Source of the DNA: Eubacterium sp.
GTDB taxonomy: Bacteria; Bacillota; Clostridia; Lachnospirales; Lachnospiraceae
DNA: 36,512 nt
Assembly: GCA_017420535.1 (NCBI GenBank)
Contig: JAFOIV010000107.1
Span: 1-36,512 of the forward strand
Direction of reading: 5' to 3'
Positions within the stretch are counted from its first letter, which is position 1. The number at the start of each line of letters is the position of its first letter. Shown here piece by piece: positions 1,444-36,512 of this stretch. Under the pieces are notes generated by a model, which saw nothing but the letters and a program-made list of their open reading frames with translations, did no database searches and was not told the DNA's origin. Made by a program: the position numbers and the translations under genes.

Positions 1444-1498
1444 GTTAACATAAAAATGGACCATAGCCTCCGGGACCTAGGTCCACTTTTATGTAAAC
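1444..1498 (-). repeat. 55-bp palindromic repeat, copy 1
   Basis: Left arm GTTAACATAAAAATGGACC, right arm GGTCCACTTTTATGTAAAC, core CCTCCGGGA (minus orientation of the family). The outer arms mismatch (GTTAAC against GTAAAC). It lies in the thi leader 16 bases before the thiE start codon. Confidence 0.9.
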
Positions 1499-1513
1499 TA
1501 TAAAGGAGATAAC

Positions 1514-2137
1514 ATGGCAGATAAAAAATTATATTTTATTACGGACAGTACGCTGTATGAGAGGGATGAATTCCTTCGAAGAGTTGAAGAGGCTTTAAAG
1601 GCTGGGGTATCTTTGATACAGCTTCGTGAGAAGAATAAAACTACAAGAGAATATATAGAAATGGCGACAGCGGTGCATGATATGACAAAAAAATATAATG
1701 TGCCTCTTATAATAGATGACCGTGTGGATGTAATGCTGGCGGTCGATGCAGAAGGTGTCCATCTTGGCGCAGAAGATATGCCCCTTGATATGGCAAGAAA
1801 GCTAATAGGTTCGGATAAAATCCTGGGTGCCACCACAAAAACTGTTGAAGCCGCTCGTGCCGCTTATGAAAATGGAGCTGATTATCTTGGGGTTGGAGCC
1901 ATTTTCCCAACTACTACAAAGGTTAAGACTATCCTTACTTCGACAGATACGCTTTCAAAAATATGCAAAAATGTTCCTATCCCCGTTTTTTCTATAGGTG
2001 GTCTTAATCCTTCTAATTTAGATGTGTTAAATGGAATTGATATTGAAGGAGTCTGCGTGGTATCAGCTATCATGAAGGCTGATTCACCTTATAATGCCAC
2101 ATTAGAGATGCAGAGAGCAATCTCCCAGCTGAATTAA
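1514..2137 (+). CDS. thiE: Thiamine phosphate synthase
   Basis: A 207-residue ThiE/TenI-family TIM barrel that couples the pyrimidine diphosphate to the thiazole phosphate to make thiamine monophosphate in the cytosol. Recognisable blocks are LYFITDSTL at the start, LIQLREK (phosphate and pyrimidine contacts), DRVDVMLAVDAEGVHLG, GATTKT, GADYLGVGAIFPT and the late PVFSIGGL. The length is typical of the family. ATG 1514 has AAAGGAG 6 bases upstream. It is the first gene after the TPP riboswitch and is followed at 55 bases by thiS, so it should be TPP-repressed with the rest of the operon. No thiC or thiD is in the window. Confidence 0.95.
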   Translation: MADKKLYFITDSTLYERDEFLRRVEEALKAGVSLIQLREKNKTTREYIEMATAVHDMTKKYNVPLIIDDRVDVMLAVDAEGVHLGAEDMPLDMARKLIGSDKILGATTKTVEAARAAYENGADYLGVGAIFPTTTKVKTILTSTDTLSKICKNVPIPVFSIGGLNPSNLDVLNGIDIEGVCVVSAIMKADSPYNATLEMQRAISQLN

Positions 2138-2192
2138 TATTAAGCTTAACTAAATAAAAAATAAGATAGATTATTTTTAGAAAGGAGCTCAT

Positions 2193-2387
2193 ATGGTAAA
2201 AGTAAATGGTGAGTCATATGATATGGACGGAAAGTCAGTAGCATTTGCTGTGGAAAGTCTTAAATATGACAGAACAAAAATTGCAGTTGAACTTAACGAG
2301 GACATAGTTCCTAAGCAAACTTATGAAGAGACAATCTTAAAAAATGGCGATGTAGTTGAAGTAGTAAGTTTTGTGGGCGGCGGCTGA
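2193..2387 (+). CDS. thiS: Sulfur carrier protein ThiS
   Basis: A 64-residue ubiquitin-like protein starting MVKVNGESYDMDGKS and ending in Gly-Gly-Gly. The C-terminal glycine is the site that ThiF adenylates and that then carries the thiocarboxylate sulfur for thiazole formation. The strong site AAAGGAG (2180-2186) precedes ATG 2193. Size, the ILKNGDVVEVV block and position between thiE and thiF agree with ThiS. Confidence 0.93.
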   Translation: MVKVNGESYDMDGKSVAFAVESLKYDRTKIAVELNEDIVPKQTYEETILKNGDVVEVVSFVGGG

Positions 2388-2457
2388 TAAAGGAGATTTT
2401 TTTCATTAATCAGCAGCTTTTATATCCATAAATTTAGTATTTAGTGAGGGAATCATC

Positions 2458-3099
2458 ATGAACAACATTCCATCAAAGGAAGAATTTTACGAGGCCCTTA
2501 GCGTAAGGCATGGCAAGGAAAATCAAGAAAAATTCCGGGCGGCGACGGTTGCAGTTTGTGGCCTTGGGGGCCTTGGTTCAAATATTTCCATCTGCCTTGC
2601 AAGAGCGGGTGTAGGAAAACTTATTTTAATTGACTTCGATAAGGTTGATATAACAAACATTCATAGACAGCAGTATAAGCTTGCCCAGATCGGGATGGAT
2701 AAAACAAAGGCGTTAGCAGAAAACCTGAGAGAGATAAATCCATTTATGGAAATAGAAACTCATCAAACAAGGATAAATGAATCTAACATCCAGGATCTTA
2801 TCCAGGAGGCGGACATAGTCTGCGAGGCATTTGATAATGCTGCGAGCAAGGCTATGCTGGTTAATTATGTGCTGGAGAATTACCCTGATAAATATATTGT
2901 TTCCGGATCAGGCATGGCTGGATTTAAAAGCGCCAATATGATAAAGACAAAGAAATTATCAAAAAGGTTTTATCTTTGCGGCGACGGTGTCAGTGATGTA
3001 AACCTGGGAATCGGACTCATTTCCGCAAGAGTTATGGCATGTGCGGCTCACGAAGCCCATATGGTTCTAAGAATTCTCATGGGAGAGACGCAGGCCTAG
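2458..3099 (+). CDS. thiF: ThiS adenylyltransferase, short ThiF family
   Basis: A 213-residue E1-like enzyme that activates the C terminus of ThiS with ATP. The nucleotide-binding loop GLGGLGSNI lies near residues 36-44, followed by the LILIDFDKVDITNIHRQQY block typical of MoeB/ThiF proteins, and the acidic VCEAFDNAASK region. It is shorter than E. coli ThiF, and the paired CxxC zinc motifs of MoeB are not visible. This matches the short anaerobe-type ThiF subfamily found next to thiG and thiH. GTGAGGGAATC upstream of ATG 2458 gives a modest ribosome-binding site. Confidence 0.9.
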   Translation: MNNIPSKEEFYEALSVRHGKENQEKFRAATVAVCGLGGLGSNISICLARAGVGKLILIDFDKVDITNIHRQQYKLAQIGMDKTKALAENLREINPFMEIETHQTRINESNIQDLIQEADIVCEAFDNAASKAMLVNYVLENYPDKYIVSGSGMAGFKSANMIKTKKLSKRFYLCGDGVSDVNLGIGLISARVMACAAHEAHMVLRILMGETQA

Positions 3100-3190
3100 G
3101 CTGGCATGCCGGGTAGAGGGAAAACCAGTGGACCAGCAGGCATGCCAGGTAGCGGGAAAAGTATCGGACCGGCTGGCATGCCGGATAGCG
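3099..3190 (+). repeat. 36-bp tandem repeat between thiF and thiG
   Basis: GGCATGCC recurs at 3103, 3139 and 3175, exactly 36 bases apart, each time followed by GG(G/A)TAG and, in the first two units, a GGGAAAA stretch. About 2.5 units fill the thiF-thiG gap. Each core is itself palindromic. It is noncoding in the operon direction. Confidence 0.85.
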
Positions 3191-3218
3191 ATAAGATTTT
3201 AGAAAGAAGGAAAAGTAT

Positions 3219-4141: not shown

Positions 4142-5398
4142 ATGGAGAATCATTTTTTGGTAGATTCGGATGAATTATCCCCGAAGGCATTGGAAATAAA
4201 ACATAGGATCGAGACTGATCCAAAGGCTAGAATAGATCACATGAAATATCTGCCGGGGATGGATGTGCTTGAGTCGGACATATGCGAAAAAGTCATGAGT
4301 CATATGGAAGCCTACGACTACAGTAAATATACAGCGCAGGATGTTAGAAGAGCGCTGAACCATGAGAGATGCACCATTGAAGATTTTAAAGCACTGCTTT
4401 CACCGGCGGCAGAGCCATTTTTAGAGGAAATGGCTCAAAGAGCAAGCCAGGAGACTAGCAAGCATTTTGGCAATACGGTTTACATTTTCACGCCAATCTA
4501 TATAGCAAATTATTGCGAGAATTACTGCATTTACTGCGGTTTCAACTGCTACAACAAGATAAATCGCCTGAAGCTCAGCCTTGAGGAAATCGAGCATGAG
4601 ATGAAGGTTATCAGTGACAGCGGCATGGAGGAAATCCTTATACTTACTGGGGAAAGCCCTGCCATGTCGGACGTGAAATATATCGGAGAGGCTGTAAAGA
4701 TCGCCCGGAAATATTTCCGCATGGTAGGAATTGAGGTTTATCCGGTAAATGTTTCTGACTATAAATATCTACACGAATGTGGCGCTGATTATGTGACGGT
4801 TTTTCAGGAAACCTATGATACAAATAGATATGAGCAGCTGCATTTGATGGGAAATAAGAGAATCTGGCCATACAGATTTGACGCCCAGGAAAGAGCACTG
4901 ATGGGAGGAATGAGGGGAGTTGCATTTTCGGCGCTGCTGGGACTTTCAGATTTTAGAAAAGACGCGTTGGCAACAGCCCTTCACGTGTACTACCTGCAGC
5001 GAAAGTACCCTCATGCGGAAATGTCACTTTCCTGCCCAAGACTTAGACCGATCATAAATAACGAGACCATAAATCCGCTTGATGTGGGAGAAAAGCAGCT
5101 TTGCCAGATCCTTTGTGCCTACAGGATATTCCTGCCTTTCGCCGGCATCACAGTTTCATCCCGGGAGTCGGCCGAATTTAGAAATGGCATCGTAAAGATC
5201 GCCGCCACTAAAGTATCTGCCGGGGTATCCACAGGAATCGGAGACCATGAAGATAAGTACGAGGAAAGAAAAGATTCCACGGATGTCCATGGAGACGAGC
5301 AGTTTGAGATAGCGGATACAAGAAGCCTTCACAACATGTACAGTGACATTTCTGCGGAAGGACTCCAGCCGGTTTTGAACGATTACTTATTCACCTAG
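4142..5398 (+). CDS. thiH: 2-iminoacetate synthase (tyrosine lyase)
   Basis: A 418-residue radical SAM enzyme that cleaves tyrosine to p-cresol and dehydroglycine, the glycine-derived donor used by ThiG under anaerobic conditions. The iron-sulfur motif CENYCIYC gives C125, C129 and C132 (CxxxCxxC), followed by GFNCYN. Other ThiH blocks are ILTGESP, YVTVFQETYD, RALMGGMRGVAFSALLGL, and SLSCPRLRP. The length fits the thiamine family rather than HydG, which carries an extra C-terminal domain. ATG 4142 follows AGAGG. The final G of its TAG stop is the first base of palindrome copy 2. Confidence 0.95.
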   Translation: MENHFLVDSDELSPKALEIKHRIETDPKARIDHMKYLPGMDVLESDICEKVMSHMEAYDYSKYTAQDVRRALNHERCTIEDFKALLSPAAEPFLEEMAQRASQETSKHFGNTVYIFTPIYIANYCENYCIYCGFNCYNKINRLKLSLEEIEHEMKVISDSGMEEILILTGESPAMSDVKYIGEAVKIARKYFRMVGIEVYPVNVSDYKYLHECGADYVTVFQETYDTNRYEQLHLMGNKRIWPYRFDAQERALMGGMRGVAFSALLGLSDFRKDALATALHVYYLQRKYPHAEMSLSCPRLRPIINNETINPLDVGEKQLCQILCAYRIFLPFAGITVSSRESAEFRNGIVKIAATKVSAGVSTGIGDHEDKYEERKDSTDVHGDEQFEIADTRSLHNMYSDISAEGLQPVLNDYLFT

Positions 5399-5451
5399 TT
5401 AACATAAAATGAGCCATAGCCCCCGGGACTGTGGTCCATTTTTATGTTAAC
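5398..5451 (-). repeat. Palindromic repeat, copy 2
   Basis: Left arm GTTAACATAAAATGAGCC, core CCCCCGGGA, right arm GGTCCATTTTTATGTTAAC. The inner arms are mismatched types (TGAGCC against GGTCCA). It begins in the thiH stop codon and lies between convergent thiH and the ABC-2 permease gene. Confidence 0.9.
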
Positions 5452-8373: not shown

Positions 8374-9270
8374 ATGAAACGGGAATTAATGGGGCTGATC
8401 GTTAAAAGAGATGACGGTTCAGAAATAATTAATTATGACAATGAGACATTTCCATCTTACATTTATGATGGATGGATCAAACCTCACGTGACCTGGGAGA
8501 GAGTGCCGCATTTTCATGAGGATGTGGAGATTCTTTCTGTAAAATCCGGGCGAATGGCTTATTCTGTAAATGGCAAGCTCATCGAATTAAATGCGGGAGA
8601 TACCATTTTCGTAAATGCAAATCAGATCCACTATAGCCTGGCGGTGGAGGAAGAGGTGGCGAGATATGTGATATTTGTCATCAATCCATCGATTCTAAAA
8701 ACTTCAGTTGCGGTGGAAATGCAGGCGGTTATGCCGATTCTTACAAATCCCAATCTTTCGTATATAAGGTTTCACGGTGAAAATGAAAATACGAAGGCGA
8801 TTTATGACATCATGCAGACCCTGCCGGATGTGAGGCGGGATGCATTTCAGGTGACCAAGCGATTTTTCTCAATCTGGGAGATCATCATGCGACAAGGGCA
8901 GTCTTACGGTTTACTGGAAAATGATATCGAGGTGGATATTCACATGCAGTCATTTAAAAAAATGATGTATTTTATCCAGAAGGAATATAAAAACAAGGTG
9001 ACCCTGGACATGATCGCGGCCTGCGGCGGGGTTAGTAAGTCCCTGTGCAACAAGCTTTTTAAGAAATATGTAGGGGTTTCGCCGATTAATTATCTTCTGG
9101 AGATCAGGATAAAAAAAGTAACGGAATATCTGCGTACCACTTCATATTCACTGTCGGAGATATCTGAACTATGCGGATTTAATGGCGCAAGTTATATGGC
9201 AGAGATGTTTAAAAAATTTATAGGAAAATCCCCACTAAATTACCGGGCAAACCCCGGAGACGAAAAATGA
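8374..9270 (+). CDS. AraC-family transcriptional regulator with cupin sensor domain
   Basis: A 298-residue regulator. The N-terminal half has cupin features: PHFHEDVEILSVKSGR, followed by GDTIFVNANQIHYSL, as in sugar- or metabolite-sensing AraC proteins. The C-terminal 100 residues hold two helix-turn-helix motifs (LDMIAACGGVSKSLCNKLFKK and LSEISELCGFNGASYMAEMFKK), ending in the family block FIGKSPLNYR. AGGAG (8360-8364) precedes ATG 8374 by 9 bases. Divergence from the ABC-2 operon suggests control of it. The last codons and TGA stop come from degraded palindrome copy 3. Confidence 0.9.
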   Translation: MKRELMGLIVKRDDGSEIINYDNETFPSYIYDGWIKPHVTWERVPHFHEDVEILSVKSGRMAYSVNGKLIELNAGDTIFVNANQIHYSLAVEEEVARYVIFVINPSILKTSVAVEMQAVMPILTNPNLSYIRFHGENENTKAIYDIMQTLPDVRRDAFQVTKRFFSIWEIIMRQGQSYGLLENDIEVDIHMQSFKKMMYFIQKEYKNKVTLDMIAACGGVSKSLCNKLFKKYVGVSPINYLLEIRIKKVTEYLRTTSYSLSEISELCGFNGASYMAEMFKKFIGKSPLNYRANPGDEK

Positions 9271-9309
9271 ACCAAGGGGCCCGGCACGATGGCTCACTTT
9301 TATGTCAAC
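9263..9309. repeat. Palindromic repeat, copy 3 (degraded)
   Basis: Left part AAAAATGAACC overlaps the AraC stop codon (TGA at 9268-9270). The core is divergent (GGGGCCCGGCACG). Right arm TGGCTCACTTTTATGTCAAC is recognisable. The outer left arm is missing. Confidence 0.75.
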
Positions 9310-9712: not shown

Positions 9713-9766
9713 GTTAACATAAAAGTGGACCTAGGGGCTTGGCCCTAGGTCCACTTTTATGTTAAC
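9713..9766. repeat. Palindromic repeat, copy 4 (perfect 24-bp arms)
   Basis: Left arm GTTAACATAAAAGTGGACC plus TAGGG is exactly complementary to the right arm, with a 6-base loop GCTTGG. The inner stem has changed (CCTAGGG/CCCTAGG) while perfect pairing is kept. It lies 5 bases after the YccF stop codon. Confidence 0.92.
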
Positions 9767-15047: not shown

Positions 15048-15098
15048 AAATGAGCCACGTAATGAGCCGCAGTGCCTGGTGCTGTGGCCCACTCTTAG
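15046..15098. repeat. Palindromic repeat, copy 5a (degraded)
   Basis: AAAAATGAGCC at the left overlaps the permease stop codon. The core is altered (GCAGTGCCTGGTGCTGTGG) and the right arm is degenerate. It abuts copy 5b. Confidence 0.65.
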
Positions 15099-15153
15099 GT
15101 AGACATAAAAATGAGCCATAGTCCCGGAGGCTATGGCTCATTTTTATGTCTAC
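15099..15153 (+). repeat. Palindromic repeat, copy 5b (compensated outer arms)
   Basis: Outer arms read GTAGAC and GTCTAC in place of GTTAAC and GTTAAC, so a change in one arm is matched in the other. Inner arms TGAGCC/GGCTCA, core TCCCGGAGG, 23-bp perfect stem. Confidence 0.93.
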
Positions 15154-16892: not shown

Positions 16893-16947
16893 AAATATAA
16901 CTCCTCTTAAAATATATAAATACATACCTGTTTTATGATTATACCAC

Positions 16948-16993
16948 AAAAGTGGACCATAGTCCCGGAGGCAGTGGCTCATTTTATGTTAAC
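16948..16993 (+). repeat. Palindromic repeat, copy 6a (left end missing)
   Basis: AAAAGTGGACC, core TCCCGGAGG, then mixed inner arm GGCTCATTTTATGTTAAC. The first eight bases of the family are absent. It lies upstream of the minus-strand spermidine-synthase-like gene. Confidence 0.85.
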
Positions 16994-16994
16994 C

Positions 16995-17041
16995 AAAAGT
17001 GGACCATAGTCCCGGAGGCAGTGGTCCATTTTTATGTCGAC
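16995..17041 (+). repeat. Palindromic repeat, copy 6b (left end missing)
   Basis: A direct tandem copy of 6a: AAAAGTGGACC, TCCCGGAGG, GGTCCATTTTTATGTCGAC. The two copies share the same left truncation, which suggests duplication. Confidence 0.85.
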
Positions 17042-18631: not shown

Positions 18632-18686
18632 GTTAACATAAAAATGGACCATAGTCCCGGAGGCTATGGTCCATTTTTATGTTAAC
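18632..18686 (+). repeat. Palindromic repeat, copy 7 (perfect 23-bp stem)
   Basis: GTTAACATAAAAATGGACC, CATAG, core TCCCGGAGG, then the exact complement of the left arm. It is a good family reference. Confidence 0.95.
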
Positions 18687-20450: not shown

Positions 20451-20505
20451 GTTTACATAAAAATGAGCCATAGTCCCGGGGGCTATGGCTCATTTTTATG
20501 TTAAC
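20451..20505 (+). repeat. Palindromic repeat, copy 8
   Basis: GTTTACATAAAAATGAGCC, core TCCCGGGGG, right arm GGCTCATTTTTATGTTAAC. The outer left arm is GTTTAC while the right is GTTAAC. It starts 3 bases after the flotillin stop. Confidence 0.92.
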
Positions 20506-22737: not shown

Positions 22738-22792
22738 GTTTACATAAAAGTGGACCTAGGTCCCGGGGGCAGTGGTCCATTTTTATGTAAAC
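22738..22792 (+). repeat. Palindromic repeat, copy 9 (compensated outer arms)
   Basis: Outer arms GTTTAC and GTAAAC are a matched pair differing from the family GTTAAC. Core TCCCGGGGG. It starts 1 base after the stop of the PP-loop gene. Confidence 0.93.
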
Positions 22793-22887: not shown

Positions 22888-23649
22888 ATGACGATATTAT
22901 ATTTTACAGCAACTGGTAATTGTCTTCAGGTGGCAAAGGAATTAGGAGGAACCTTGCTGTCTATTCCTAAACTTGTTAAAGAAGAAAAATATGAGATAAA
23001 CGATGATGCGATAGGTGTTATTTTCCCGACCTATGCAGCTGACGCACCAAAGATGGTACGGAGATTTTTAGAAAAAGCTCGTCTTAAGGCGGATTATGTC
23101 TTTTGCATTGCCACATATGGATACCTGGCGGGAGCGGTGACAAGGCATGCCCAGGAGTATATGCTAAAGGCGGCGGGGCATTTGGAGTATATCGAAAAGA
23201 TCATAATGGTGGACAATGCCTTAACTCTTTTTGAGAGTAAAAAGCAGATTGACACGCTTTATAAAAAGGATGTCTCGGGACAGATAAAGAGAGTCAAAGA
23301 GGAAATTGAAAATAGAACTATTAAAAGGGCGAAGGCCTCTATTTTTGATAAGTCGTTGGATTTCTTTTATCATAAAATGGGGACTTTTCACACGGCGGAT
23401 AAAAGGGACATGGATTTTACGATTGATGAAAACTGCGTAAAATGTGGCATTTGTGCGGGGGTGTGTCCTGCGGCAAATATCATTTTAAAGGATAAGCCTG
23501 AATATCTGCATCATTGTGAGGGGTGTCTTGCCTGCATACATAATTGTCCGAAGAAGGCAATTCATGTAAAGAATGAAAAGAGCTGCAACCGTTTTAGAAA
23601 TGCGGAAATAACTGTAGGGGAAATAGAAGAAGCAAATAATCAGATTTAG
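22888..23649 (+). CDS. EFR1-type flavodoxin-ferredoxin protein
   Basis: A 253-residue protein. The N terminus (MTILYFTATGNCLQVAKEL) is a flavodoxin FMN-binding loop, and GVIFPTYAADAPKMVRRF continues the fold. The C terminus has two 4Fe-4S motifs: C183, C186, C189, C193 (CVKCGICAGVCP) and C210, C213, C216, C220 (CEGCLACIHNCP). The combination is the EFR1 family of clostridial electron carriers. I start at ATG 22888, which has AAGGAG upstream; the TTG at 22861 would only add nine residues. The redox partner is unknown. The last base of its TAG stop is the first base of palindrome copy 10. Confidence 0.93.
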   Translation: MTILYFTATGNCLQVAKELGGTLLSIPKLVKEEKYEINDDAIGVIFPTYAADAPKMVRRFLEKARLKADYVFCIATYGYLAGAVTRHAQEYMLKAAGHLEYIEKIIMVDNALTLFESKKQIDTLYKKDVSGQIKRVKEEIENRTIKRAKASIFDKSLDFFYHKMGTFHTADKRDMDFTIDENCVKCGICAGVCPAANIILKDKPEYLHHCEGCLACIHNCPKKAIHVKNEKSCNRFRNAEITVGEIEEANNQI

Positions 23650-23703
23650 TTAACATAAAAGTGGACCTAGGTCCCGGGGGCAGTGGTCCATTTTTATGTT
23701 AAC
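23649..23703 (+). repeat. Palindromic repeat, copy 10
   Basis: GTTAACATAAAAGTGGACC, core GTCCCGGGGG, GGTCCATTTTTATGTTAAC. Its first G completes the EFR1 stop codon. Nearly identical to copies 9 and 11. Confidence 0.95.
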
Positions 23704-24960: not shown

Positions 24961-25015
24961 GTTAACATAAAAGTGGACCTAGGTCCCGGGGGCAGTGGTC
25001 CATTTTTATGTTAAC
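24961..25015 (+). repeat. Palindromic repeat, copy 11
   Basis: Essentially identical to copy 10: TGGACCTAGG left, core TCCCGGGGG, CAGTGGTCCA right. Confidence 0.95.
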
Positions 25016-26002: not shown

Positions 26003-26057
26003 GTTAACATAAAAATGGACCATAGTCCCGGGGGCAGTGGTCCATTTTTATGTTAAC
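26003..26057 (+). repeat. Palindromic repeat, copy 12, next to the RAYT gene
   Basis: GTTAACATAAAAATGGACC, core TCCCGGGGG, CAGTGG right inner arm. It is 50 bases from the 3' end of the transposase gene. Confidence 0.95.
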
Positions 26058-26107
26058 TGAAAAAAACGTAATTTTATAGGATTTTTTTACTGTGGTTTGC
26101 TTTTATA

Positions 26108-26893
26108 TTATGTTTCAGTTGCCGCGGAAGAGCAGATTCGTTTTACGGTTGTTGTTGAAACCGCCATAACTCGAGAAATTTGTTTTATAGTCAGTCCCTT
26201 TTTCTTTAATATGCGAATATAGTTATTTCGCGTAACTCGCGGCAGAGCAGCGGTGGCAGAAACGGATGGAAGTCCGGTTACCTCTTTATAAATTCTAAGA
26301 GCATCTTCATCAGTCATATAATTACTTTTTTTCTCAATAAAAGAAAATGATTTTTCATCAATAAGATTAAAATTATGAGCGAAGAAACGATGCAGAGCTT
26401 CTTTGCTGCCAAATAAGTTGATGGCATAAGTAACATTTACAAGGGGATTATGGGCACCATAATAAGCATTGAAACTGCTCCAGCGGTACTCAGAAGGTAC
26501 AAGGCAGACGCCGGCTTTGACTGGATTGTTATGAATATAGATCAGTGTATATAGAAAATAGTGCTCAGATTCCACAACGAAACTGCTGTATCTTTCCTGA
26601 AAGAGCGAACCGGATCGTTCATATTTTTTGTTGTACCATTGGACAAACTTTGAGCCAAGGCTCTGGAAGAATAAAGATATGTTGTTCAAATCGGAACGCA
26701 GCATAAAATGGACGTGAGTATCCATTACACAATAGGCTAATATATCAATACCATATTTTTCCTTACTAATCGATAAGGTTGAAAGAAATTTGAGATAGTC
26801 GGAGTTCTCTTCAAAAATGATACGATGATTAATAGAACGAAGTATGATATGATATATGCCAGTAGAACTAGTACGTCTATGTTTTCTTGGCAT
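26108..26893 (-). CDS. RAYT-type Y1 HUH transposase
   Basis: A 261-residue single-strand-DNA endonuclease of the REP-associated tyrosine transposase group (Y1_Tnp). The HUH motif is H60-V61-H62 in VMDTHVHFML, and the candidate catalytic tyrosine is Y119 in the family block YIHNNPVKAG. GSLFQERYSS and EYRWSSFNAYYG are also typical. The C-terminal 45 residues form an added helix-turn-helix (TIKQISRVMAVSTTTVKRI) seen in several Firmicute members. AAAGGAG precedes ATG 26893. Gene and domain length look intact. It is not flanked by a close inverted pair of ends, so it is a domesticated-looking single-copy gene, and the palindromes nearby are its likely substrate. Confidence 0.93.
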   Translation of the reverse strand: MPRKHRRTSSTGIYHIILRSINHRIIFEENSDYLKFLSTLSISKEKYGIDILAYCVMDTHVHFMLRSDLNNISLFFQSLGSKFVQWYNKKYERSGSLFQERYSSFVVESEHYFLYTLIYIHNNPVKAGVCLVPSEYRWSSFNAYYGAHNPLVNVTYAINLFGSKEALHRFFAHNFNLIDEKSFSFIEKKSNYMTDEDALRIYKEVTGLPSVSATAALPRVTRNNYIRILKKKGLTIKQISRVMAVSTTTVKRICSSAATET

Positions 26894-27040: not shown

Positions 27041-27481
27041 ATGAAATTTGGATGGATAAATTTTGTTGGGGCGGCAATCGTTTTTCTGATGATGGTGCCG
27101 AATATTATTTACGCAAAAAAAAATAAAGATGAGAAGAATCACTGCATAAATCATTTTATGAATATAATAGAGCAGATTGGAAGATACGGCTGTATAGTGC
27201 TGATGTGGATGCCGCTTCTTATCTGGAAGTTTGGATTTAAAAGCGTATTTGAAATGGTCCTTTACGTGATAGGTAATTTGCTTCTTCTTTTTGCATATTA
27301 TATTGTATTTGCGATTTATATGAGAAAGAAGCGCGCGGGGCTTGCAATGGCACTGGCTATAATTCCAAGTTTCATTTTTATATTTAGTGGTGTTTTACTA
27401 AGACACTGGCTGCTAGTGGTGTTTGCGGTGTTATTTTTCATAGGACATATATATGTAACCTGGCAAAATGCCAAATACTAG
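27041..27481 (+). CDS. Small polytopic membrane protein of unknown function
   Basis: A 146-residue protein with four to five hydrophobic segments (for example WINFVGAAIVFLMMVPNIIYA, VLMWMPLLIWKFGF, LLLLFAYYIVFAIYM), with basic loops such as AKKNKDEKNH and MRKKRAG. AGGAGG precedes ATG 27041. I do not recognise the family. It lies after the RAYT gene, divergent from it, and converges with bioB. The G of its TAG stop is the first base of palindrome copy 13. Confidence 0.75.
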   Translation: MKFGWINFVGAAIVFLMMVPNIIYAKKNKDEKNHCINHFMNIIEQIGRYGCIVLMWMPLLIWKFGFKSVFEMVLYVIGNLLLLFAYYIVFAIYMRKKRAGLAMALAIIPSFIFIFSGVLLRHWLLVVFAVLFFIGHIYVTWQNAKY

Positions 27482-27535
27482 TTAACATAAAAATGAGCCA
27501 TAGCCTCCGGGACTATGGCTCATTTTTATGTTAAC
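27481..27535 (-). repeat. Palindromic repeat, copy 13, supplying two stop codons
   Basis: GTTAACATAAAAATGAGCC, core CCTCCGGGA, GGCTCATTTTTATGTTAAC. Its first base completes the TAG of the membrane protein, and its right arm contains the TAA stop of bioB (27531-27533 on the minus strand). It exactly fills the gap between the two convergent genes. Confidence 0.95.
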
Positions 27536-28493: not shown

Positions 28494-28528
28494 ATTTTTA
28501 ATCCTCGTTTCGTTTCTTACGACATATT

Positions 28529-28581: not shown

Positions 28582-28603
28582 AAAAGGTGGAGCCGCTGCC
28601 AAG

Positions 28604-28658
28604 GTTAACATAAAAGTGGACCACTGCCCCCGGGACCTTGGTCCACTTTTATGTTAAC
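28604..28658 (-). repeat. Palindromic repeat, copy 14, between divergent promoters
   Basis: GTTAACATAAAAGTGGACC, core CCCCCGGGA, GGTCCACTTTTATGTTAAC. It lies upstream of both bioB and the transglutaminase-like gene, so it cannot be a terminator for either. Confidence 0.93.
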
Positions 28659-28698
28659 TATGGCAGATTATTTCTGTTGTAAAAAGAGATAGAAAATA

Positions 28699-28707
28699 TG
28701 TTATAAT
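28699..28707 (+). promoter_or_regulatory. Extended -10 promoter of the transglutaminase-like gene
   Basis: TG-T-TATAAT (28699-28707), about 30 bases before the start codon. A TTGTAA 19 bases upstream is a weak -35 candidate. Confidence 0.55.
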
Positions 28708-28737
28708 TCTAATGAATTAATGAAAGGCGGGGTTTTT

Positions 28738-29640: not shown

Positions 29641-29644
29641 TCCA

Positions 29645-29709
29645 GTTAACATAAAAATGAACCAAGGTAAATGGACCAAGGTGCCAGGCTACATGGCTCA
29701 TTTTTGTAT
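29645..29709. repeat. Palindromic repeat, copy 15 (degraded)
   Basis: A good left arm GTTAACATAAAAATGAACC, then an internal duplication (ACCAAGGTAAATGGACCAAGG) and a right arm reduced to TGGCTCATTTTTGTATA. Confidence 0.7.
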
Positions 29710-29733
29710 ATAATTTTTTATGGGAGAAACAAA

Positions 29734-32700
29734 ATGACTAAAGATATGTGGGAAACATTGGGTATTGAGGAAACAAAAGACCGAGAAACAATTCTCAATG
29801 CCTATAGAAACAAGGTTGTTACAGTAAATCCTGAGGATGATCAGGAAGGGTTCATGAAGCTTAGAGAGGCATATGAAGCTGCAATCAGGTTTGCAGAAAA
29901 TGACTCTGAGAAAACTAAGAATCCAAACAATGAAATAAGATACTCTGATAATGATGAAGTAGATGCGGCAGTTAAGACTCATATTAAGAAACTAGAAGTA
30001 ATCTATAATGATATTGATAAGAGAAGAAATCCAGAACTTTGGAGAGAATGGCTGGATGATGAGGTCTGCAAGAATCTTGACAGCGTAGATCCTATGTGTG
30101 AAGCACTTCTCGTTTTTTTGATGAAGAATCACTGTATTCCATTTAAAATGTGGAAAATGATGGATGAAAGATTTGGTTTTGTTGGTAACAAGGAGAATCT
30201 TTCAGAAAAATTCGCTGGGGAATATCTGGAATTCATCGAGATCCAGTGTAAAAACGATGATTATGGGGATTATGATGATTACTCAAAAAGAGACATTTAC
30301 TATGAGTTTTTTTCTGATCTGATTCCTGAAATCTCGGTTTATGCAGATGAAAAAATTTATGAGGCAAGGGAATTCCCATATGCTGATGATGAATACATCA
30401 GTAATATGCTGAGGATTAGTGCTTATTTTAATGATTATTTTGACAACTACCTTTACTTTAAGAAGACGGGAGAGAAGGAGCATAAGGAGGAAATGGATAA
30501 GAGCATTACCTTTATCTCCAATATCCTTGAAAGATGTGACAGAGCTAAGATTTTCACTCCGGTTGAGCTTGGAGCAAGGATTCTTCTTCTTGAAATTGAG
30601 GGAAAATGTGACATGGCATTTAAGCTTTCAAAGGCAGTATTTGAGCGCTGGGAAAAGCTGCATTATTACGCCACAAATAATGCCATGAAGATTCTTATTA
30701 AGAACATTGATCGATTTGAAAATAAAACTGAGATACTTAATAAAATCTATGAAAAGGTTGAGAAACTTGAGGAGCTTCATCCTGAGTATAATTCAACAAA
30801 GAAAGTAAGATTCGCCCTTTTCATGCTGGATAACCAGTTTAAGGAAGCAGATGAAAAGATCAGAGAGGTCCTGAATGAAAATAGTAGTGACCTGGAGGCC
30901 GTAATCTTCTTTAAGATCGTTACGGATAAAGAAACAGAAATCTATAATGAGAATATGAAAAATGGCTCTGTGTCCGAACAGGAAAAGATGGATGCGGCTT
31001 TAAGATATTATCAGAATACGGATATTGATCACGCACTGTTAACCTTAAATAAGATTGAAGGAGATCAGGTGGATCAGTATGAATACCATAAGCTGTACAG
31101 CATTTGTTATTCTGAAAAGAAAAAATATGACTTGGCAGAGGAACATTTTAAAATATGGAAAGAATTGCTTGAGCAGATTGTAAACAGCAACGAACCCTTC
31201 AGTGAAAAAGATGAGGAAAAAGCTAAGAACGTCGCACAATGCTATATGAAATATGCTTTTTGCCTTGAAAAGTTAGGCAAAATAAAAGAAGCTGAGGAAC
31301 TTTATAAAAAAGATATAGAATTTAGTAATTCACAAGCTGAGATAAGATTCAAGGAAGCTTACGGTAAATTCCTTCAGAATTGTAAAAGATATGATGAAGC
31401 TATGAGGATATGGGAGGAGTTTATTAAAAAACCTGATTTTGCCCTTCTTGGCTATATACATAGGCAGGAAACGGCATATAAAATGCAGCGCGGCCAGATG
31501 GTAGTTGATGATTACTATGAGATCATTAACAGATATAGATTATATCCTAAGGCATATTACTATGCGGCAGATGTATTTTATATTTATGATCAGATCGAAG
31601 AGGCTAAAAAGGTATTAGAAAATGCAAAAAAAGAAGGACTTTCAAGTGATCTGCTTAGAATGTTAAATGCCAGAATCCTTCGTACAAGGGGCTTTAATAC
31701 ATATGAGGAATATGCAAGGGGCCAGTCAGAGGTAACCCAGATCTACGATAAGGTCCTTAGAAATATCGAAGCTTCAAAGTATAAATATAGTAACGATAAT
31801 GATGTGTCAGACGTAATGGATGAACTTGAGATGGTTTATGGCGAAGTGGCATCATTTTACTTAAGATTAGTTGATAGAAATAATAATAATATAGAATTAA
31901 ATAAAGCTGAAGAGTATGTAAATAAAGGACTTTCAGTAAATCCTAAAGGATGGCGTCTGCTTTTAATTCTGGCGGATATAAAAGAAAAAAAGGGCTATAA
32001 GGCTGATGACATTTATAGAAAGCTTATGGATTATTATCCTAAAAGTGGTAATGCTTATTTTGAATATGCTAATTACCTTGAGCGTAAGAATCCTAGGGGA
32101 GTTCAGGAAGACAAATGCTTCTACTATGAAAAAACTATAGAATATGATTCAGAAAATATCGAAGCTTTAAAGAAACTGAAGGATATTTACATTTCAAAAT
32201 ATAGGAATAATAGAAATGATACCTCCCTCTATCGAAAAGCTGTTGATTATGCTAACAGAATGCTGAAATTAAATCCTGATGCACATTATTATGTGGAAAG
32301 AGGATTTGTATATTTAGACGGCGGTGACTTTGATTATGCTATTGCTGATGGGCTTTCAGCTATTGAAGCAGATCAGGATTATGGATATGCCTACAACATG
32401 CTGTGCAAGGTATATTACAGAAAAAATGATTTAGAAAAAGCCATTGAAAATGGAGAGAAAGCAATTAAACTGCTGAACAATGATGAGAATAGATTTTCTG
32501 CAGTATTCTATAACCTTATCAAGGCTTATGAAAAAGCAATGAGATACGATGAGGCCTTAGCAACACTTGATGAGGCTTTAAAGTATTATGATGAAGAGGA
32601 AAGTGATAGAGACATTTATGAAAGAATTTATCGAAAAAAGAAAGATAAAACAAATGCTCAAAAGTTAGGTACCAGAAGATTAAATATGGATCTTGTAGAC

Positions 32701-33426
32701 TATAAAAAGACGAAGAACGGTTATTATGTAATTGCAGCATACTTAGAGCTTATTAAAACGAATATTATATTTAATGAGATAGAAGTCGCAAAGAGATTTG
32801 AAAAGGAGATGGAAAAGAAACTAAAGGAAATGGGTGTTTCCCCTGACGGAAAGAAAAAAAACTCAGATCTTAATGACAAAATGGTTTTTGACATTTTAAA
32901 ATCTCTTGGATATTTTTATATGGATGTAAAAAGAGATTATAAGAAGGCATTAAAGTGTTATATGTCTTTGGAAAAAATGGATAAGCAAAGCAATGGAAAA
33001 ATATATGATTATATGGAAAACATATATGATGAATATGCAATGTGTCTTTTATTCCTTAAAAAGAAGTCTCTTGCTAAAAAATATGCAGACAAGACTCTTG
33101 ATATAATAAAACAAAAAGCAGGGTCTATTGAAAACTACACTAATGACTTTAATTATGGACCTCTTTATACATTCAAAGCTGGATGGATGCTTTATATCTC
33201 AGGAGATAAAGAAAGAGCAATGAAGTTACTTAGTAAAGGGGAAAATTGTACTCACTGTTGTCATTGTAATAAGTGTCGTTGTTATGACATAATCCTTGCC
33301 TATGCCCTTATAGCAGAAATAGAAAATAGAATAGATGATGCCATAAGACTCTACCAGGAAGCATATAAGATAGCACCGGATGATGTGGCTTTAACAGTGG
33401 CATTAAGATCTCTAGGCGCAATGTAA
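29734..33426 (+). CDS. J-domain/TPR-repeat protein with a C-terminal cysteine cluster
   Basis: A 1230-residue protein, predicted cytosolic, with no signal or membrane segment. I start at ATG 29734 (MTKDMWETLG), preceded by GGGAGA; the longer frame reads through palindrome copy 15. Residues 1-52 look like a J domain (DRETILNAYRNKV, DQEGFMKLREAYEAA), but the HPD tripeptide is replaced by NPE at 32-34. Helical TPR-like repeats fill most of the rest (for example AEEHFKIWKELL, AEELYKKDIEFS, AIENGEKAIKLLNN, AIRLYQEAYKIAPDDVALTVAL). Residues 1172-1183 read CTHCCHCNKCRC, six cysteines with two histidines, a likely metal site. No Hsp70 gene adjoins. Role unknown, probably a scaffold or co-chaperone. 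Confidence 0.8.
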   Translation: MTKDMWETLGIEETKDRETILNAYRNKVVTVNPEDDQEGFMKLREAYEAAIRFAENDSEKTKNPNNEIRYSDNDEVDAAVKTHIKKLEVIYNDIDKRRNPELWREWLDDEVCKNLDSVDPMCEALLVFLMKNHCIPFKMWKMMDERFGFVGNKENLSEKFAGEYLEFIEIQCKNDDYGDYDDYSKRDIYYEFFSDLIPEISVYADEKIYEAREFPYADDEYISNMLRISAYFNDYFDNYLYFKKTGEKEHKEEMDKSITFISNILERCDRAKIFTPVELGARILLLEIEGKCDMAFKLSKAVFERWEKLHYYATNNAMKILIKNIDRFENKTEILNKIYEKVEKLEELHPEYNSTKKVRFALFMLDNQFKEADEKIREVLNENSSDLEAVIFFKIVTDKETEIYNENMKNGSVSEQEKMDAALRYYQNTDIDHALLTLNKIEGDQVDQYEYHKLYSICYSEKKKYDLAEEHFKIWKELLEQIVNSNEPFSEKDEEKAKNVAQCYMKYAFCLEKLGKIKEAEELYKKDIEFSNSQAEIRFKEAYGKFLQNCKRYDEAMRIWEEFIKKPDFALLGYIHRQETAYKMQRGQMVVDDYYEIINRYRLYPKAYYYAADVFYIYDQIEEAKKVLENAKKEGLSSDLLRMLNARILRTRGFNTYEEYARGQSEVTQIYDKVLRNIEASKYKYSNDNDVSDVMDELEMVYGEVASFYLRLVDRNNNNIELNKAEEYVNKGLSVNPKGWRLLLILADIKEKKGYKADDIYRKLMDYYPKSGNAYFEYANYLERKNPRGVQEDKCFYYEKTIEYDSENIEALKKLKDIYISKYRNNRNDTSLYRKAVDYANRMLKLNPDAHYYVERGFVYLDGGDFDYAIADGLSAIEADQDYGYAYNMLCKVYYRKNDLEKAIENGEKAIKLLNNDENRFSAVFYNLIKAYEKAMRYDEALATLDEALKYYDEEESDRDIYERIYRKKKDKTNAQKLGTRRLNMDLVDYKKTKNGYYVIAAYLELIKTNIIFNEIEVAKRFEKEMEKKLKEMGVSPDGKKKNSDLNDKMVFDILKSLGYFYMDVKRDYKKALKCYMSLEKMDKQSNGKIYDYMENIYDEYAMCLLFLKKKSLAKKYADKTLDIIKQKAGSIENYTNDFNYGPLYTFKAGWMLYISGDKERAMKLLSKGENCTHCCHCNKCRCYDIILAYALIAEIENRIDDAIRLYQEAYKIAPDDVALTVALRSLGAM

Positions 33427-33484
33427 GTGGACCAAGGCAAAGTGAACCACTGCCCCCGGGACTATGGCTCATTTTTATGTTAAC
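33427..33484 (-). repeat. Palindromic repeat, copy 16 (left arm altered)
   Basis: Starts directly after the TAA stop of the TPR gene: GTGGACCAAGGCAAAGTGAACC, core CCCCCGGGA, then GGCTCATTTTTATGTTAAC. The outer left arm is lost and the left inner part is duplicated as in copy 15. Confidence 0.8.
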
Positions 33485-33498
33485 TATGTGGAGAATAT

Positions 33499-33900
33499 AT
33501 GGAAATAATTACATGTTTAAATGATAAAAATTCAAATGACATTCTTCGAACCATGCTGCAGGGCATGGATTATACAGTCCTTTCCGCTGAGGATGCGGGA
33601 ATCAGGGCAAGTATCGGCGCGGCGGTTTCATTTTCACAAAAGGGATCTGTGGATCTTACTTTAATGCTGCCGGATGGGGCAAAGATCCATTTTAAAGCAA
33701 CTGGAAATGAATTGTCCCAAGTTAACAACGTTCAAACCGAAAATCCTGGCATGGTAGGCAACTCTTCCGTAGAAAATGCCATGGCGCAGATAAAGCAATT
33801 CCTTGCAGAAAATCCAGAGATAGGACAATTGTCTGCAAAAAAGCAAAAAAATATTTATGATAGAGAGAAAAAAAGAAAAAAACTGAAAGAGTCAAAATAG
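33499..33900 (+). CDS. Small unknown protein
   Basis: A 133-residue soluble protein starting MEIITCLNDKNSNDILRT, with a central beta-rich region (GSVDLTLMLPDGAKIHFKATG), a Gln/Asn-rich linker, and a highly basic tail (KKQKNIYDREKKRKKLKESK). GGAGA precedes ATG 33499. I do not recognise the family. It is followed after 6 bases by the dehydratase-like gene, so the two are very likely co-translated and may act together. The basic tail suggests contact with nucleic acid or an acidic partner, but that is a guess. Confidence 0.7.
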   Translation: MEIITCLNDKNSNDILRTMLQGMDYTVLSAEDAGIRASIGAAVSFSQKGSVDLTLMLPDGAKIHFKATGNELSQVNNVQTENPGMVGNSSVENAMAQIKQFLAENPEIGQLSAKKQKNIYDREKKRKKLKESK

Positions 33901-33906
33901 GTTAAT

Positions 33907-34872
33907 ATGTGGGTTCCAAAGATTAATATAAAAGACGATAAAAAAAGAAGCATACTTTTTGTTCCGGCCATGCTGGACATGCATTTTCCGCTAATAAAGT
34001 ATGCCTTCTATTCAAAAAATTATATCCCTGTGATAATGACAGAAGAAGATGGAATTACAGATCTTGGTATCAGATATGTCAATAATGATATGTGTTATCC
34101 CATTATCCAGATCGTTGGACAGATGATAAAGACCTTACAAAGTGGAAAATATAACGTAAACCGCGTGAAACTTCTTATGCCAACAGCAGGCGACGCCTGT
34201 CGTGGAGCAAATTATATAGGAGCTTTAAGGAGAGCTGTGAAACTTGCTGGATATTGCAATGTGCCTGTGCTTACTCTTAATGTAAGAGACTGCGAAAAAG
34301 ATAGCATGATGAAATTTGATCTTCCTATGGTTTGGCGCGCGCTTTTTGGCCTTTTCTATGGAGATATCCTTATGATGCTTCTTTATCAAACAAGACCTTA
34401 TGAAAAGACAAAGGGCGAAGCTGACTCTTGTTGGGAAAAATGGATCAAGCGGCTTTCATATGACATGATAAGGGGCAGAAATCTATCACTAGGAGCGATG
34501 CGTAAGAATTTCAGACTCATTTCAAAGGATTTTGCCGCTATCAGGGAAAATGACACATGGCACAAAATAAAAAGAAAACCCGTTGTAGGAATAATAGGGG
34601 AACTTTATGTTAAATATTGCCACTTGGGAAACTGGGATCTGGTAGATTTTATTGAAAAAAATGGAGCCGAGGCCGTTGGATATATGAAACATGGCGTAAA
34701 TAAAGTATTTGCGGCTCAGCCATTTGGCTGCATGGTAAATCATTGCGCCGGAAGAGGGCTTTATCCTTCTTTAGCAAGAAAATATAAGTGTGCAAATATT
34801 GTCAGCGCTGACGTAGATTCCAGCGCATCAAAATTAAACTATTACAATCGACTTTTAATGTTGCTTAACTAG
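33907..34872 (+). CDS. 2-hydroxyacyl-CoA dehydratase/activase-related protein (COG3581-like)
   Basis: A 321-residue protein resembling the C-terminal part of large CoA-enzyme-activase proteins (DUF2229/COG3581). Visible blocks are NNDMCYP (C63), PTAGDACRGANYIGALRRA (C98), and QPFGCMVNHCAGRGLYPSLA (C275, C280), ending in NIVSADVDSSAS. The cysteines at 63, 98 and 275 match positions conserved in this group and may hold an iron-sulfur cluster. The ASKHA ATPase module that usually accompanies it is absent from this protein and from its neighbours, so its partner must be elsewhere or it acts alone. The start at ATG 33907 follows the preceding stop by 6 bases with no clear ribosome-binding site, implying coupling. 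Confidence 0.75.
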   Translation: MWVPKINIKDDKKRSILFVPAMLDMHFPLIKYAFYSKNYIPVIMTEEDGITDLGIRYVNNDMCYPIIQIVGQMIKTLQSGKYNVNRVKLLMPTAGDACRGANYIGALRRAVKLAGYCNVPVLTLNVRDCEKDSMMKFDLPMVWRALFGLFYGDILMMLLYQTRPYEKTKGEADSCWEKWIKRLSYDMIRGRNLSLGAMRKNFRLISKDFAAIRENDTWHKIKRKPVVGIIGELYVKYCHLGNWDLVDFIEKNGAEAVGYMKHGVNKVFAAQPFGCMVNHCAGRGLYPSLARKYKCANIVSADVDSSASKLNYYNRLLMLLN

Positions 34873-34877
34873 TATAG

Positions 34878-34947
34878 GTTAACATAAGAATGGACCTAGG
34901 GGGACTGTCCCCTAGCTCCATTCCCCCTAGGTCCATTCTTATGTTAA
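34878..34947. repeat. Palindromic repeat, copy 17 (compensated arms, expanded loop)
   Basis: The outer arms read GTTAACATAAGAATGGACC and GGTCCATTCTTATGTTAA; the A-to-G change in one arm is matched by T-to-C in the other. The inner stem is CTAGGGGG/CCCCCTAG and the loop is expanded to about 19 bases. It lies between the convergent dehydratase-like and GPH genes. Confidence 0.9.
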
Positions 34948-34952
34948 TCATT

Positions 34953-36335
34953 TTATTTCGATTGGTTTTCGTACTGAGCTTCTTTTTCTTTATGTTTTCT
35001 TATTATCTCTTTCTTTTTCTCATCCCATTCTTTTCCGTCTAAAGGATAAAATAAAATTGAAATGCCACTGATGATAAGAGAGATGGCAGGAACTATCATC
35101 CAGGCGATAAGAAGTCCTTTTTTTGCTCTTTCTGACTGAAGGCCGGCGCCAAGGCTCTGATCATAGCCGTAGGCTTTCCATATAGTAAGGAAAAGAGCCT
35201 GAGCGATACTAAGAGCAGGCTTTGTGATAAAACTGTTTATTCCGGCGTACATTCCCTCTCTTCTAAGCCCAGTTCTTGTTTCATCATAATCAATTACGTC
35301 GCCATTCATAAGTGGAACGCTGAACATGCATCCGGTGTAGCCAATACCAGCGCAGAAGAAACCAATAACTGCAACAAATGTAACATTTCCGAAAAATGCC
35401 ATCATGAGGCAGGCAAGCCCAAATTCAAAGCAAAGGAAGAGCAGCGATTTTTTAACTCCCAGCTTATTTGTCATGATCTTAAAAATAAACATTCCAGCCA
35501 CAGCCCCGATAACCATTGGGATGTAGCAAAATTCCATTTTAATATTAGTCTCTGCAAAATAATATAAAACTCCCTGCATAAGCGCAGTGTTTATCAGCTG
35601 TGTGGTAAAGGACAAAACCTCAAATATAAGAAATGGCTTATTCTTAAAGCATTCTGCCAGAGCCTTGAAAAATCCAGGTTGTTCCTCGTCTTTTACATAA
35701 TCAAGTTCTTTATAAAAATAAGTTGAAACGAAAATGATCACTGCAGCGACAACGCCAATCCCCAGCAATACAAGCCTAAACACCGTTGGGTCCGCTTTTG
35801 GATCCGGCTCGATAAGCGGAAGCAGCACCATAGGGCCTCCCAGGGAAATGACTCCGAATATTATCTTAAAGATAAAAATGGAAGCGCGAGTCTTATTGTC
35901 CACTGTCATTTCATAGGGCATAACGTAAAGAGCAGTTGCGATTGCGGTATATAAGGTGTCGAATAAGAAAAGCATCGCCAGCATCTGGATCGACATGGCA
36001 ATCTGGCTCTTTCCGAAGAGATAAGGAACCCACATCAGGATAAATATCAGTCCGTAAAATGGCGCTCCGTATCGAATATAAGGCACTCGGCGGCCGATTT
36101 TTGATTTGGTATGATCGGAAATGAACCCGAACAAAGGGTCATTTATGGCATTCCAGATGGCGAAGAGCAGCCATACTATTGAGGCATATTCAGTGCTTAG
36201 CCCCATCCATTTGGTGTAAAAATATGTCATCCCACCGCCAGTAACAATGCCGCACAACACACCGCACATGCTATCTGCCGCGGATAACCATAACTTTGAA
36301 GAAAGCTTTACTTCACTTTCCTTGATATCCTTCAT
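34953..36335 (-). CDS. GPH-family sugar:cation symporter
   Basis: A 460-residue MFS protein with about twelve hydrophobic segments. The GPH (MelB-like) signature is clear: YASIVWLLFAIWNAINDPLFG followed by FISDHTKSKIGRRVPYIRYG. The mid-loop and LRREGMYAGINSFI near residue 365 also match. It should import a glycoside, pentoside or hexuronide with sodium or protons. I start at ATG 36335 (MKDIKESEVKLSS), where GGAGG lies 8 bases upstream. No glycosidase follows within the window, so the sugar cannot be named. A promoter and inverted repeat lie upstream. Confidence 0.92.
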   Translation of the reverse strand: MKDIKESEVKLSSKLWLSAADSMCGVLCGIVTGGGMTYFYTKWMGLSTEYASIVWLLFAIWNAINDPLFGFISDHTKSKIGRRVPYIRYGAPFYGLIFILMWVPYLFGKSQIAMSIQMLAMLFLFDTLYTAIATALYVMPYEMTVDNKTRASIFIFKIIFGVISLGGPMVLLPLIEPDPKADPTVFRLVLLGIGVVAAVIIFVSTYFYKELDYVKDEEQPGFFKALAECFKNKPFLIFEVLSFTTQLINTALMQGVLYYFAETNIKMEFCYIPMVIGAVAGMFIFKIMTNKLGVKKSLLFLCFEFGLACLMMAFFGNVTFVAVIGFFCAGIGYTGCMFSVPLMNGDVIDYDETRTGLRREGMYAGINSFITKPALSIAQALFLTIWKAYGYDQSLGAGLQSERAKKGLLIAWMIVPAISLIISGISILFYPLDGKEWDEKKKEIIRKHKEKEAQYENQSK

Positions 36336-36378
36336 ACTTCTTCCCTCCATTTAAGCATCATAATACTTGCCTCGTTAT

Positions 36379-36421
36379 ATTAAACAATGAAAATTGAATT
36401 TTAAATTATAAATTGTTTAAT
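36379..36421. promoter_or_regulatory. Inverted repeat upstream of the GPH symporter
   Basis: ATTAAACAAT (36379-36388) and ATTGTTTAAT (36412-36421) are exact reverse complements, 23 bases apart, downstream of the promoter at 36439-36466. This is a plausible sugar-repressor operator. Confidence 0.5.
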
Positions 36422-36438
36422 ATGTACAATTTAATGAT

Positions 36439-36466
36439 ACTATATTGTAGGAAATCAGTTTTTCAA
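36439..36466 (-). promoter_or_regulatory. Promoter of the GPH symporter (minus strand)
   Basis: On the minus strand: TTGAAA (36466-36461), 16-base spacer, TATAGT (36444-36439). Confidence 0.6.
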
Positions 36467-36494
36467 ATTTCACCATAAAAAATGCAAATTAATT

Positions 36495-36512
36495 CATAAA
36501 AATGAGCCATGG
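36495..36512. repeat. Palindromic repeat, copy 18 (cut by window end)
   Basis: CATAAAAATGAGCCATGG is the left half of another family member. The window ends before its core. Confidence 0.8.

Follow-up and report, generated by a model that had tools for sequence, protein, structure and literature searches.

RAYT-like transposase genes that are accompanied by long inverted repeats have been described as TIRYTs; some of these repeats are self-complementary, and some form moderately abundant families (Di Nocera et al. 2013, PMC3733652). The main text of that study, figures excluded, contains none of the words Firmicutes, Clostridi-, and Lachnospir-. According to Quentin et al. (2018), TIRYTs probably correspond to subclass 2.1 of the TnpA-REP proteins, into which 20 of the 26 TIRYTs of Di Nocera et al. 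fall and which carries a C-terminal helix-turn-helix (HTH), and the parts of this survey that deal with subclass 2.1 report no sequences resembling repetitive extragenic palindromes (REPs) near its genes, by automatic or by manual search (PMC6006769). In known REPs, as far as treated in the relevant sections of PMC8266576, strand choice depends on the tetranucleotide GTAG and on single-stranded features. The present analysis concerns a 36,512-bp stretch of DNA from a Eubacterium species of the Lachnospiraceae (contig JAFOIV010000107.1 of assembly GCA_017420535.1), here called the window, in which a 55-bp palindrome is repeated around a single gene for a RAYT-like transposase. These palindromes are probably the repeat family of this one RAYT-type, HTH-tailed transposase, a family whose movement would now be slow or dormant and whose copies would today serve as terminators and as recombination seams.

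The palindrome is repeated far above chance. With up to two mismatches allowed, the half-site GTTAACATAAAA was counted 44 times in the window; in 100 shuffled versions the mean was 8.3 (standard deviation 2.9), and none of them reached 44. A pattern search returned 107 half-sites and its reversed-pattern control none; together with the shuffles, this control rules out plain chance as the source of the repeats. Inverted-repeat searches and searches with nhmmer and a covariance model, for which the palindrome model was built from 12 window copies, located 13 full and about six degraded copies (Table 1). An earlier, sequence-only reading of the window had counted about 20 copies, 13 of them full, and these are indeed inverted repeats where it had placed them. 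In the source genome (G000; 2.67 Mb), at least 136 strand matches to the 12-copy model were found among the best 150 candidates scored, representing at least 70 distinct places in at least 16 of 134 contigs. The number of 70 places is a lower bound, the copy at 34878 being absent from the underlying list. The sequence-only reading had held that a count of only a few copies would speak against a mobile family, and the covariance-model search of the genome yielded these 70 or more. Sixteen of them lie in this contig, for which about one would be expected by length; the density of one copy per about 2 kb that had been noted thus applies to this contig but is local and does not extend to the genome as a whole. 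In a check for regional clustering, the closed genome G203 of the genus was found to have six of the seven REP-side genes, at 1.08, 1.09, 1.25, 2.07, 2.10, and 3.13 Mb, and this scatter indicates that gene order is not conserved.

The transposase gene is flanked by palindromes on both sides (Table 1), and the repeats also occur elsewhere in the genome. Its product matches the Y1_Tnp profile PF01797 with an E-value of 2.6e-11, over the cut-off, and is the only match to this profile found in the source genome. Among 28 aligned transposase sequences, which were picked for open frames, the residues H60 and H62 of the HUH motif and Y119 of the motif YIHNNP are invariant; these three are presumed, from the family, to be the catalytic residues. 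An AlphaFold model of the protein (mean pLDDT 88) found its best match in the Protein Data Bank (PDB) in 4er8, the structure of a REP-associated transposase in complex with a REP hairpin, with an E-value of 4e-8 and a target-normalised TM-score of 0.72; searching the PDB by sequence gave no match for the transposase. The catalytic domain is followed by a C-terminal HTH, to which helices 219-260 of the model and a conserved LTxRQIAR stretch correspond and for which a profile search gave a sub-threshold match. Against the NCBIfam equivalog REP_Tyr_transpos the protein scores 63.5 bits, under the cut-off of 80. The 13 closest records of the enzyme search are titled Lachnospiraceae, Butyrivibrio, or [Clostridium] aminophilum. 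Judged by its tail and its predicted fold, and not by a tree, the transposase is best read as an HTH-tailed RAYT (TIRYT, TnpA-REP subclass 2.1).

Enzyme and palindrome occur together. Of 61 genomes of the genus, four encode an enzyme that is 88-100% identical, namely the source genome, G243, G209, and G252, the last with a fragment at a contig end, and 17 others encode a distant Y1 relative. Each of the same four genomes has at least 86-94 matches to the palindrome model, in contrast to 0-6 in the other 57 (zero in 44, and 1-6 weak ones with a best E-value of 2e-10 in 13). The association of enzyme and family, 4/4 versus 0/57, has a hypergeometric p of 1.9e-6. Being present in bulk in 4 of 61 genomes, the family is not general in the genus, and among 200 genomes of the bacterial family it is found in the source genome alone, five others having one or two weak matches. 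The sequence-only reading had called the repeats REP/MITE-like. Its first term is borne out by the Y1 transposase inside the cluster, which that reading had missed, and by the way in which the palindromes go with the RAYT-type gene across the 61 genomes. The second term, under which the palindromes would be miniature inverted-repeat transposable elements (MITEs) or solo ends of another insertion sequence, such as a DDE element, would suit their fully symmetric inverted repeats and near-identical copies; yet the enzyme in the cluster and the enzyme that the family follows are one and the same Y1 protein, which renders this origin highly improbable. No other partner element was found, although target-site duplications were not tested systematically and no screen was made for DDE elements with matching ends.

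A second pairing of a palindrome with a related enzyme supports the co-occurrence in part. In relatives with 52-56% identical enzymes, the gene is flanked by different long palindromes. The core GGGACGGGGTTAG reaches at least 10 hits in three of the 200 genomes of the bacterial family, G004 (26 hits), G049 (40), and G128 (14), all of which encode a 52-56% identical enzyme. In G049 (L243, L244), a 78-bp palindrome of other sequence clusters at C7:92021-110926 around a 52%-identical transposase; 18 of the 20 half-sites of GGGACGGGGTTAG listed, out of 40, lie at C7:92-111 kb, and the enzyme gene is located at 101.8-102.5 kb.

The palindromes are placed at the ends of genes. Placement was assessed for 47 copies of at least 50 bits in the analysed stretches of the source genome, 42 of which are intergenic with an adjacent gene end. 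Within 10 bp of a stop codon lie 31 of these 42 copies, compared with 10.4% of random intergenic positions (p 4e-22), and 27 lie within 4 bp, compared with 4.9%. The same stop-codon placement is seen in G243 and G209, and in G049 8 of 11 measured copies of the different palindrome are within 10 bp of a stop. Often the palindrome itself supplies the last base of a TAG stop, or a TAA within GTTAAC. Comparison of six genes with their counterparts in family-free relatives showed that thiH and a PP-loop protein end at the same residue in these relatives, that BioB ends within about one residue, and that the end of a cation transporter is alike in two of them. RtcB extends about seven residues further here, and SfsA has a different end, at a distance from its palindrome. 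As gene ends are shared with palindrome-free relatives, the palindrome appears mostly to sit at the native gene end.

With regard to transcription, a T-rich tail is present on both strands in all 37 of 37 full copies, and three copies folded on both strands reached z-scores of -5 to -12 relative to shuffles; bidirectional termination by the palindromes is therefore likely. The terminator form on both strands, the position at stop codons, and the conservation of orthologous positions reported below would likewise be expected if the palindromes were ordinary host terminators that gene conversion or selection has made alike, with the transposase as a bystander. This explanation is nevertheless unlikely. 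In 57 of the 61 genomes compared within the genus the family is not present in bulk, and the thiH and PP-loop orthologues in family-free genomes end at the same codon without such a hairpin. Furthermore, the pattern in G049 is similar although both the palindrome and the enzyme (52% identical) are different ones, and near-identity across 55 bp would exceed what termination needs.

Orthologous sites were compared between strains for 69 copies of at least 35 bits in the fetched stretches of the source genome, both flanks being resolved at 45 sites for G243 and at 33 for G209. Of the resolved sites, 43 of 45 in G243 and 32 of 33 in G209 are occupied, and the other three hold weak remnants. The reverse directions gave 45/46 (G243 to source genome), 32/33 (G209 to source genome), 36/36 (G243 to G209), and 38/39 (G209 to G243), and the single copy absent in the last of these comparisons lies where the surroundings have been replaced (652 bp), not at a clean empty site. 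Flanks remained unresolved at 24 of 69 sites for G243 and at 36 of 69 for G209, some of which lie outside the fetched DNA. At many of them, one homologous flank reaches the palindrome and the other side is missing or located elsewhere; in G243, at least one flank reaches the palindrome at 14 of the 24. The closest candidate for an insertion, L216:4190 versus L199:5831, has degraded copies in both strains. Recent insertion was thus looked for as the origin of strain differences, and none was found at resolved sites. The mobile family inferred by the sequence-only reading is not supported by this comparison of orthologous positions, which it had itself proposed, and transposition can only be inferred because no clean empty site was found.

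What varies between the strains is the DNA between copies, which is lost with one copy left behind. Insertions or deletions of at least 150 bp whose two edges each lie no more than 80 bp from a copy account for 8 of 31, 7 of 20, and 7 of 16 events in three genome pairs, compared with 2.1, 1.4, and 1.0 expected for edges placed at random in intergenic gaps; the three pairs share events. In event E1, the Fer4 segment at 22738-23703 is present in the source genome and in G209 and missing in G243, and the lone copy of G243 is a hybrid, its left arm being that of the left copy and its right arm that of the right one. A hybrid copy, with the crossover inside the left half, was also identified in event E4 (L201:10050-12485 versus L221:3733). 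Event E2 concerns the copy at 26003 (Table 1). With G209 as the outgroup, a position favoured by the enzyme identities, E1 and E2 are losses, and E4 is probably a loss as well; the segment of event E5 is present only in the source genome and could represent a gain or a double loss.

Segments between palindromes that are present or absent with one palindrome left, together with palindromes that directly follow a stop codon, recall integron-like gene cassettes, each consisting of a gene with its stop-codon palindrome and gained or lost by site-specific recombination at the palindrome. In addition, REP enzymes and the integron integrase IntI both act on folded single strands, according to the sections of PMC8266576 that treat them. 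The IntI profile TIGR02249, however, has 10 matches in the genome and none over the cut-off, so that no integrase was found at that threshold. The foot consensus of integron recombination sites, GTTRRRY, is present in 0 of 37 copies. Judging by the hybrids of E1 and E4, crossover took place within the palindrome and not at its edge. Some segments are blocks of several genes, genes of either orientation occur in them, and the events that three genomes polarise (E1, E2, and probably E4) are losses. Cassettes of this kind are very unlikely. A further proposal, which must be considered quite unlikely, is a gene-end shuffling system, in which stop-codon hairpins would punctuate the chromosome into modules of one or a few genes and the RAYT, by cutting at two hairpins, would actively excise, flip, or exchange a module. 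If this were true, a domesticated REP transposase would do in Firmicutes what integrases do in integrons.

The symmetry of the arms was analysed in 37 of the 42 full copies in the stretches of the source genome; the copies at 5398, 9713, 34878, and L198:9808 were omitted for their length or ends, and that at 24961 because it is identical to the copy at 23649. The outer six bases match across the arms in 28 of 37 copies (17.5 expected, p 5e-5), and for bases 13-19 the same holds in 27 copies (13.9 expected, p 1e-4), so that the paired arm changes seen by the sequence-only reading are confirmed for the outer and middle stem but not for the inner core, where four bases match in 13 of 37 copies (10.6 expected, p 0.15, not significant). 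Over the whole stem, 31 cells are changed on both sides, compared with 16.9 in shuffles, 5 of 500 of which reached this number, whereas neither the base pairs with two-sided change (7 versus 6.1 in shuffles) nor the further pair types (15 versus 15.7) are raised. Among 67 orthologous full-copy pairs between strains, in which one copy may recur across genome pairs, 25 are identical. Some of the others differ only in symmetric pairs, for example L203:9361 (positions 5/51) and L229/L236 (4/52), and many differ on one arm alone. In L205:8009-8063, compared with its counterparts in G243 and G209 (L216:1438-1492 and L234:13048-13102), the whole core of the copy is inverted in place, all nine of nine differences being symmetric. 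One-arm differences, symmetric-only differences, and the inversion in place together argue that symmetry is maintained in part by exchange or inversion rather than by strict compensation.

For the preferred reading, that of a repeat family belonging to the RAYT-type transposase, the following sequence of events can be proposed. The ancestor of a small clade would have acquired the pair of enzyme and palindrome, and the enzyme, as its class suggests, presumably moved the palindrome by cutting and pasting it in the form of a single-stranded DNA hairpin. Insertions would have survived at gene 3' ends; in these places the palindrome either provides the stop codon or lies directly beside it, and it is shaped like a bidirectional intrinsic terminator. 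Spread would by now be slow or have stopped. Recombination between neighbouring copies removes the intervening DNA and leaves one copy, which in two cases is demonstrably a hybrid; a copy can also be inverted in place. The enzyme may act on the hairpins and may also have a role in these deletions.

A number of observations weigh against this reading. The four positive genomes form one close clade, so the p-value of the association overstates phylogenetic independence, and 13 of the 57 genomes outside the enzyme-bearing clade carry the weak matches mentioned above. Three of these genomes (G219, G227, and G248) have 4-6 such matches with no enzyme detected. With respect to the second palindrome, G189 (54%) and G080 (50%) encode the enzyme and have just two and four core hits, G058, with a 46% identical enzyme, has none, and seven genomes of the bacterial family without detected enzyme have 1-6 hits to GGGACGGGGTTAG. 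The lack of a clean empty site among the resolved orthologous places of the source genome, G243, and G209 belongs here too. Concerning placement, gene ends were derived from a simple open reading frame (ORF) finder, and the stop-codon rule is weak in G128 (3 of 7 within 10 bp) and thin in G004 (1 of 2). A consensus terminator scan of 18000-36512 called no palindrome and found eight sites, compared with 11.8 in shuffles, and full termination at the thi-leader copy, which separates the riboswitch from thiE, would silence the operon. Finally, among the 37 full copies the GTAG foot occurs in one, and neither the CGTC tag nor the GGGGWSAS motif, which marks many but not all terminal inverted repeats (TIRs), occurs in any. 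The weak palindrome matches in G219, G227, and G248 are possible relics.

The positions of all copies and of the transposase gene are summarised in Table 1. At the gathering threshold of Rfam, the sole match in the window is the TPP riboswitch RF00059 at 1114-1219, upstream of thiE. The palindrome in this thi leader is retained in G243 and G209, so that a terminator-like element lies within a regulated leader. The block at 29645-34948, which is bordered by degraded copies, contains two ORFs that match no family and a gene for a 1251-aa protein, for which the TPR matches are sub-threshold; it is partly missing from G209 and wholly missing from G243.

Table 1. Palindrome copies and transposase gene in the window.
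Feature	Position	Strand	Remarks
Full palindrome	1444..1498	.	Between TPP riboswitch and thiE start codon (1514)
Full palindrome	5398..5451	.	First G completes TAG stop of thiH (4142-5398)
Degraded palindrome	9256..9309	.	
Full palindrome	9713..9766	.	Variant core CCTAGGG/CCCTAGG
Weak remnant (degraded)	15061..15101	.	Partly overlaps neighbouring copy; nhmmer 19.8 bits
Full palindrome	15099..15153	.	Paired arm change GTAGAC/GTCTAC
Two adjoining degraded palindromes	16938..17041	.	Starts at 16938 and 16995; at start of ORF 15186-16982 (-)
Full palindrome	18632..18686	.	4 bp past MatE gene stop; folds at -35.9 and -36.8 kcal/mol on the two strands
Full palindrome	20451..20505	.	Outer arms unmatched, GTTTAC/GTTAAC, the form expected of a recombinant
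Full palindrome	22738..22792	.	Left edge of segment absent in G243
Full palindrome	23649..23703	.	Right edge of segment absent in G243; completes TAG stop of Fer4 gene 22861-23649
Full palindrome	24961..25015	.	3 bp past Maf gene stop; identical to copy 23649
Full palindrome	26003..26057	.	50 bp downstream of transposase; single here, two copies with DNA between them in G243 and G209
Y1 (HUH) transposase, RAYT/TnpA-REP-like, 261 aa, C-terminal HTH	26108..26893	-	PF01797
Full palindrome	27481..27535	.	587 bp upstream of transposase; gives TAA stop of bioB-like gene 27531-28493
Full palindrome	28604..28658	.	Inverted repeat reaches 35-nt arms
Degraded copy	29645..29714	.	Left edge of DNA absent in G209 (to 33439) and G243 (to 34930)
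Degraded half-copy	33439..33484	.	
Full copy with enlarged core	34878..34948	.	Changed arms ATAAGAAT/ATTCTTAT

The present case bears on how REP transposases pick their sites and on what a host gains from keeping one. With it, the HTH-tailed RAYT class, reported to lack REPs, would gain a large and clean palindrome family, to which a placement rule (stop codons) and a partly parallel second case in G049 are added. Natural strain pairs show copies acting as deletion seams and flipping in place. The nearly symmetric palindrome also poses a question of strand choice, since known REP enzymes rely on an asymmetric foot, bulge, or loop. No description of such a case was found in the literature searched, subscription papers lying outside the search.

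Bidirectional intrinsic terminators consist of a GC hairpin that is preceded by an A-tract and followed by a T-tract, and the palindromes share this form; in contrast to such terminators, the tracts here belong to one long palindrome that is repeated almost unchanged genome-wide. The REP-RAYT systems (groups 2 and 3) of E. coli, Pseudomonas, and Stenotrophomonas, in the passages of PMC8266576 and PMC8049555 that describe them, resemble the present one in their single-copy HUH transposase and in their dispersed intergenic palindromes, but in their REPs a GTAG foot, together with bulges or loops, provides for strand choice, whereas the palindromes described here, which are longer and almost symmetric, lack GTAG and occur mostly singly, with few adjoining (as at 16938-17041). 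TnpA-REP subclass 2.1 comprises class 2 Y1 proteins with a longer C-terminal tail of the HTH/DnaA_C-like type, as does the enzyme here; the survey, in its account of the subclass, saw no REP-like sequences nearby, whereas a large palindrome family accompanies the present gene (PMC6006769). Similar in organisation are the TIRtrons or TIRYTs, in which, according to the portions of PMC3733652 and PMC6006769 concerned, a RAYT-like Y1 gene with a C-terminal HTH likewise lies between long inverted repeats. The locus differs from these in its at least 70 near-perfect 55-bp palindromes, which lack GGGGWSAS, are located at stop codons, are clustered, and act as deletion seams.

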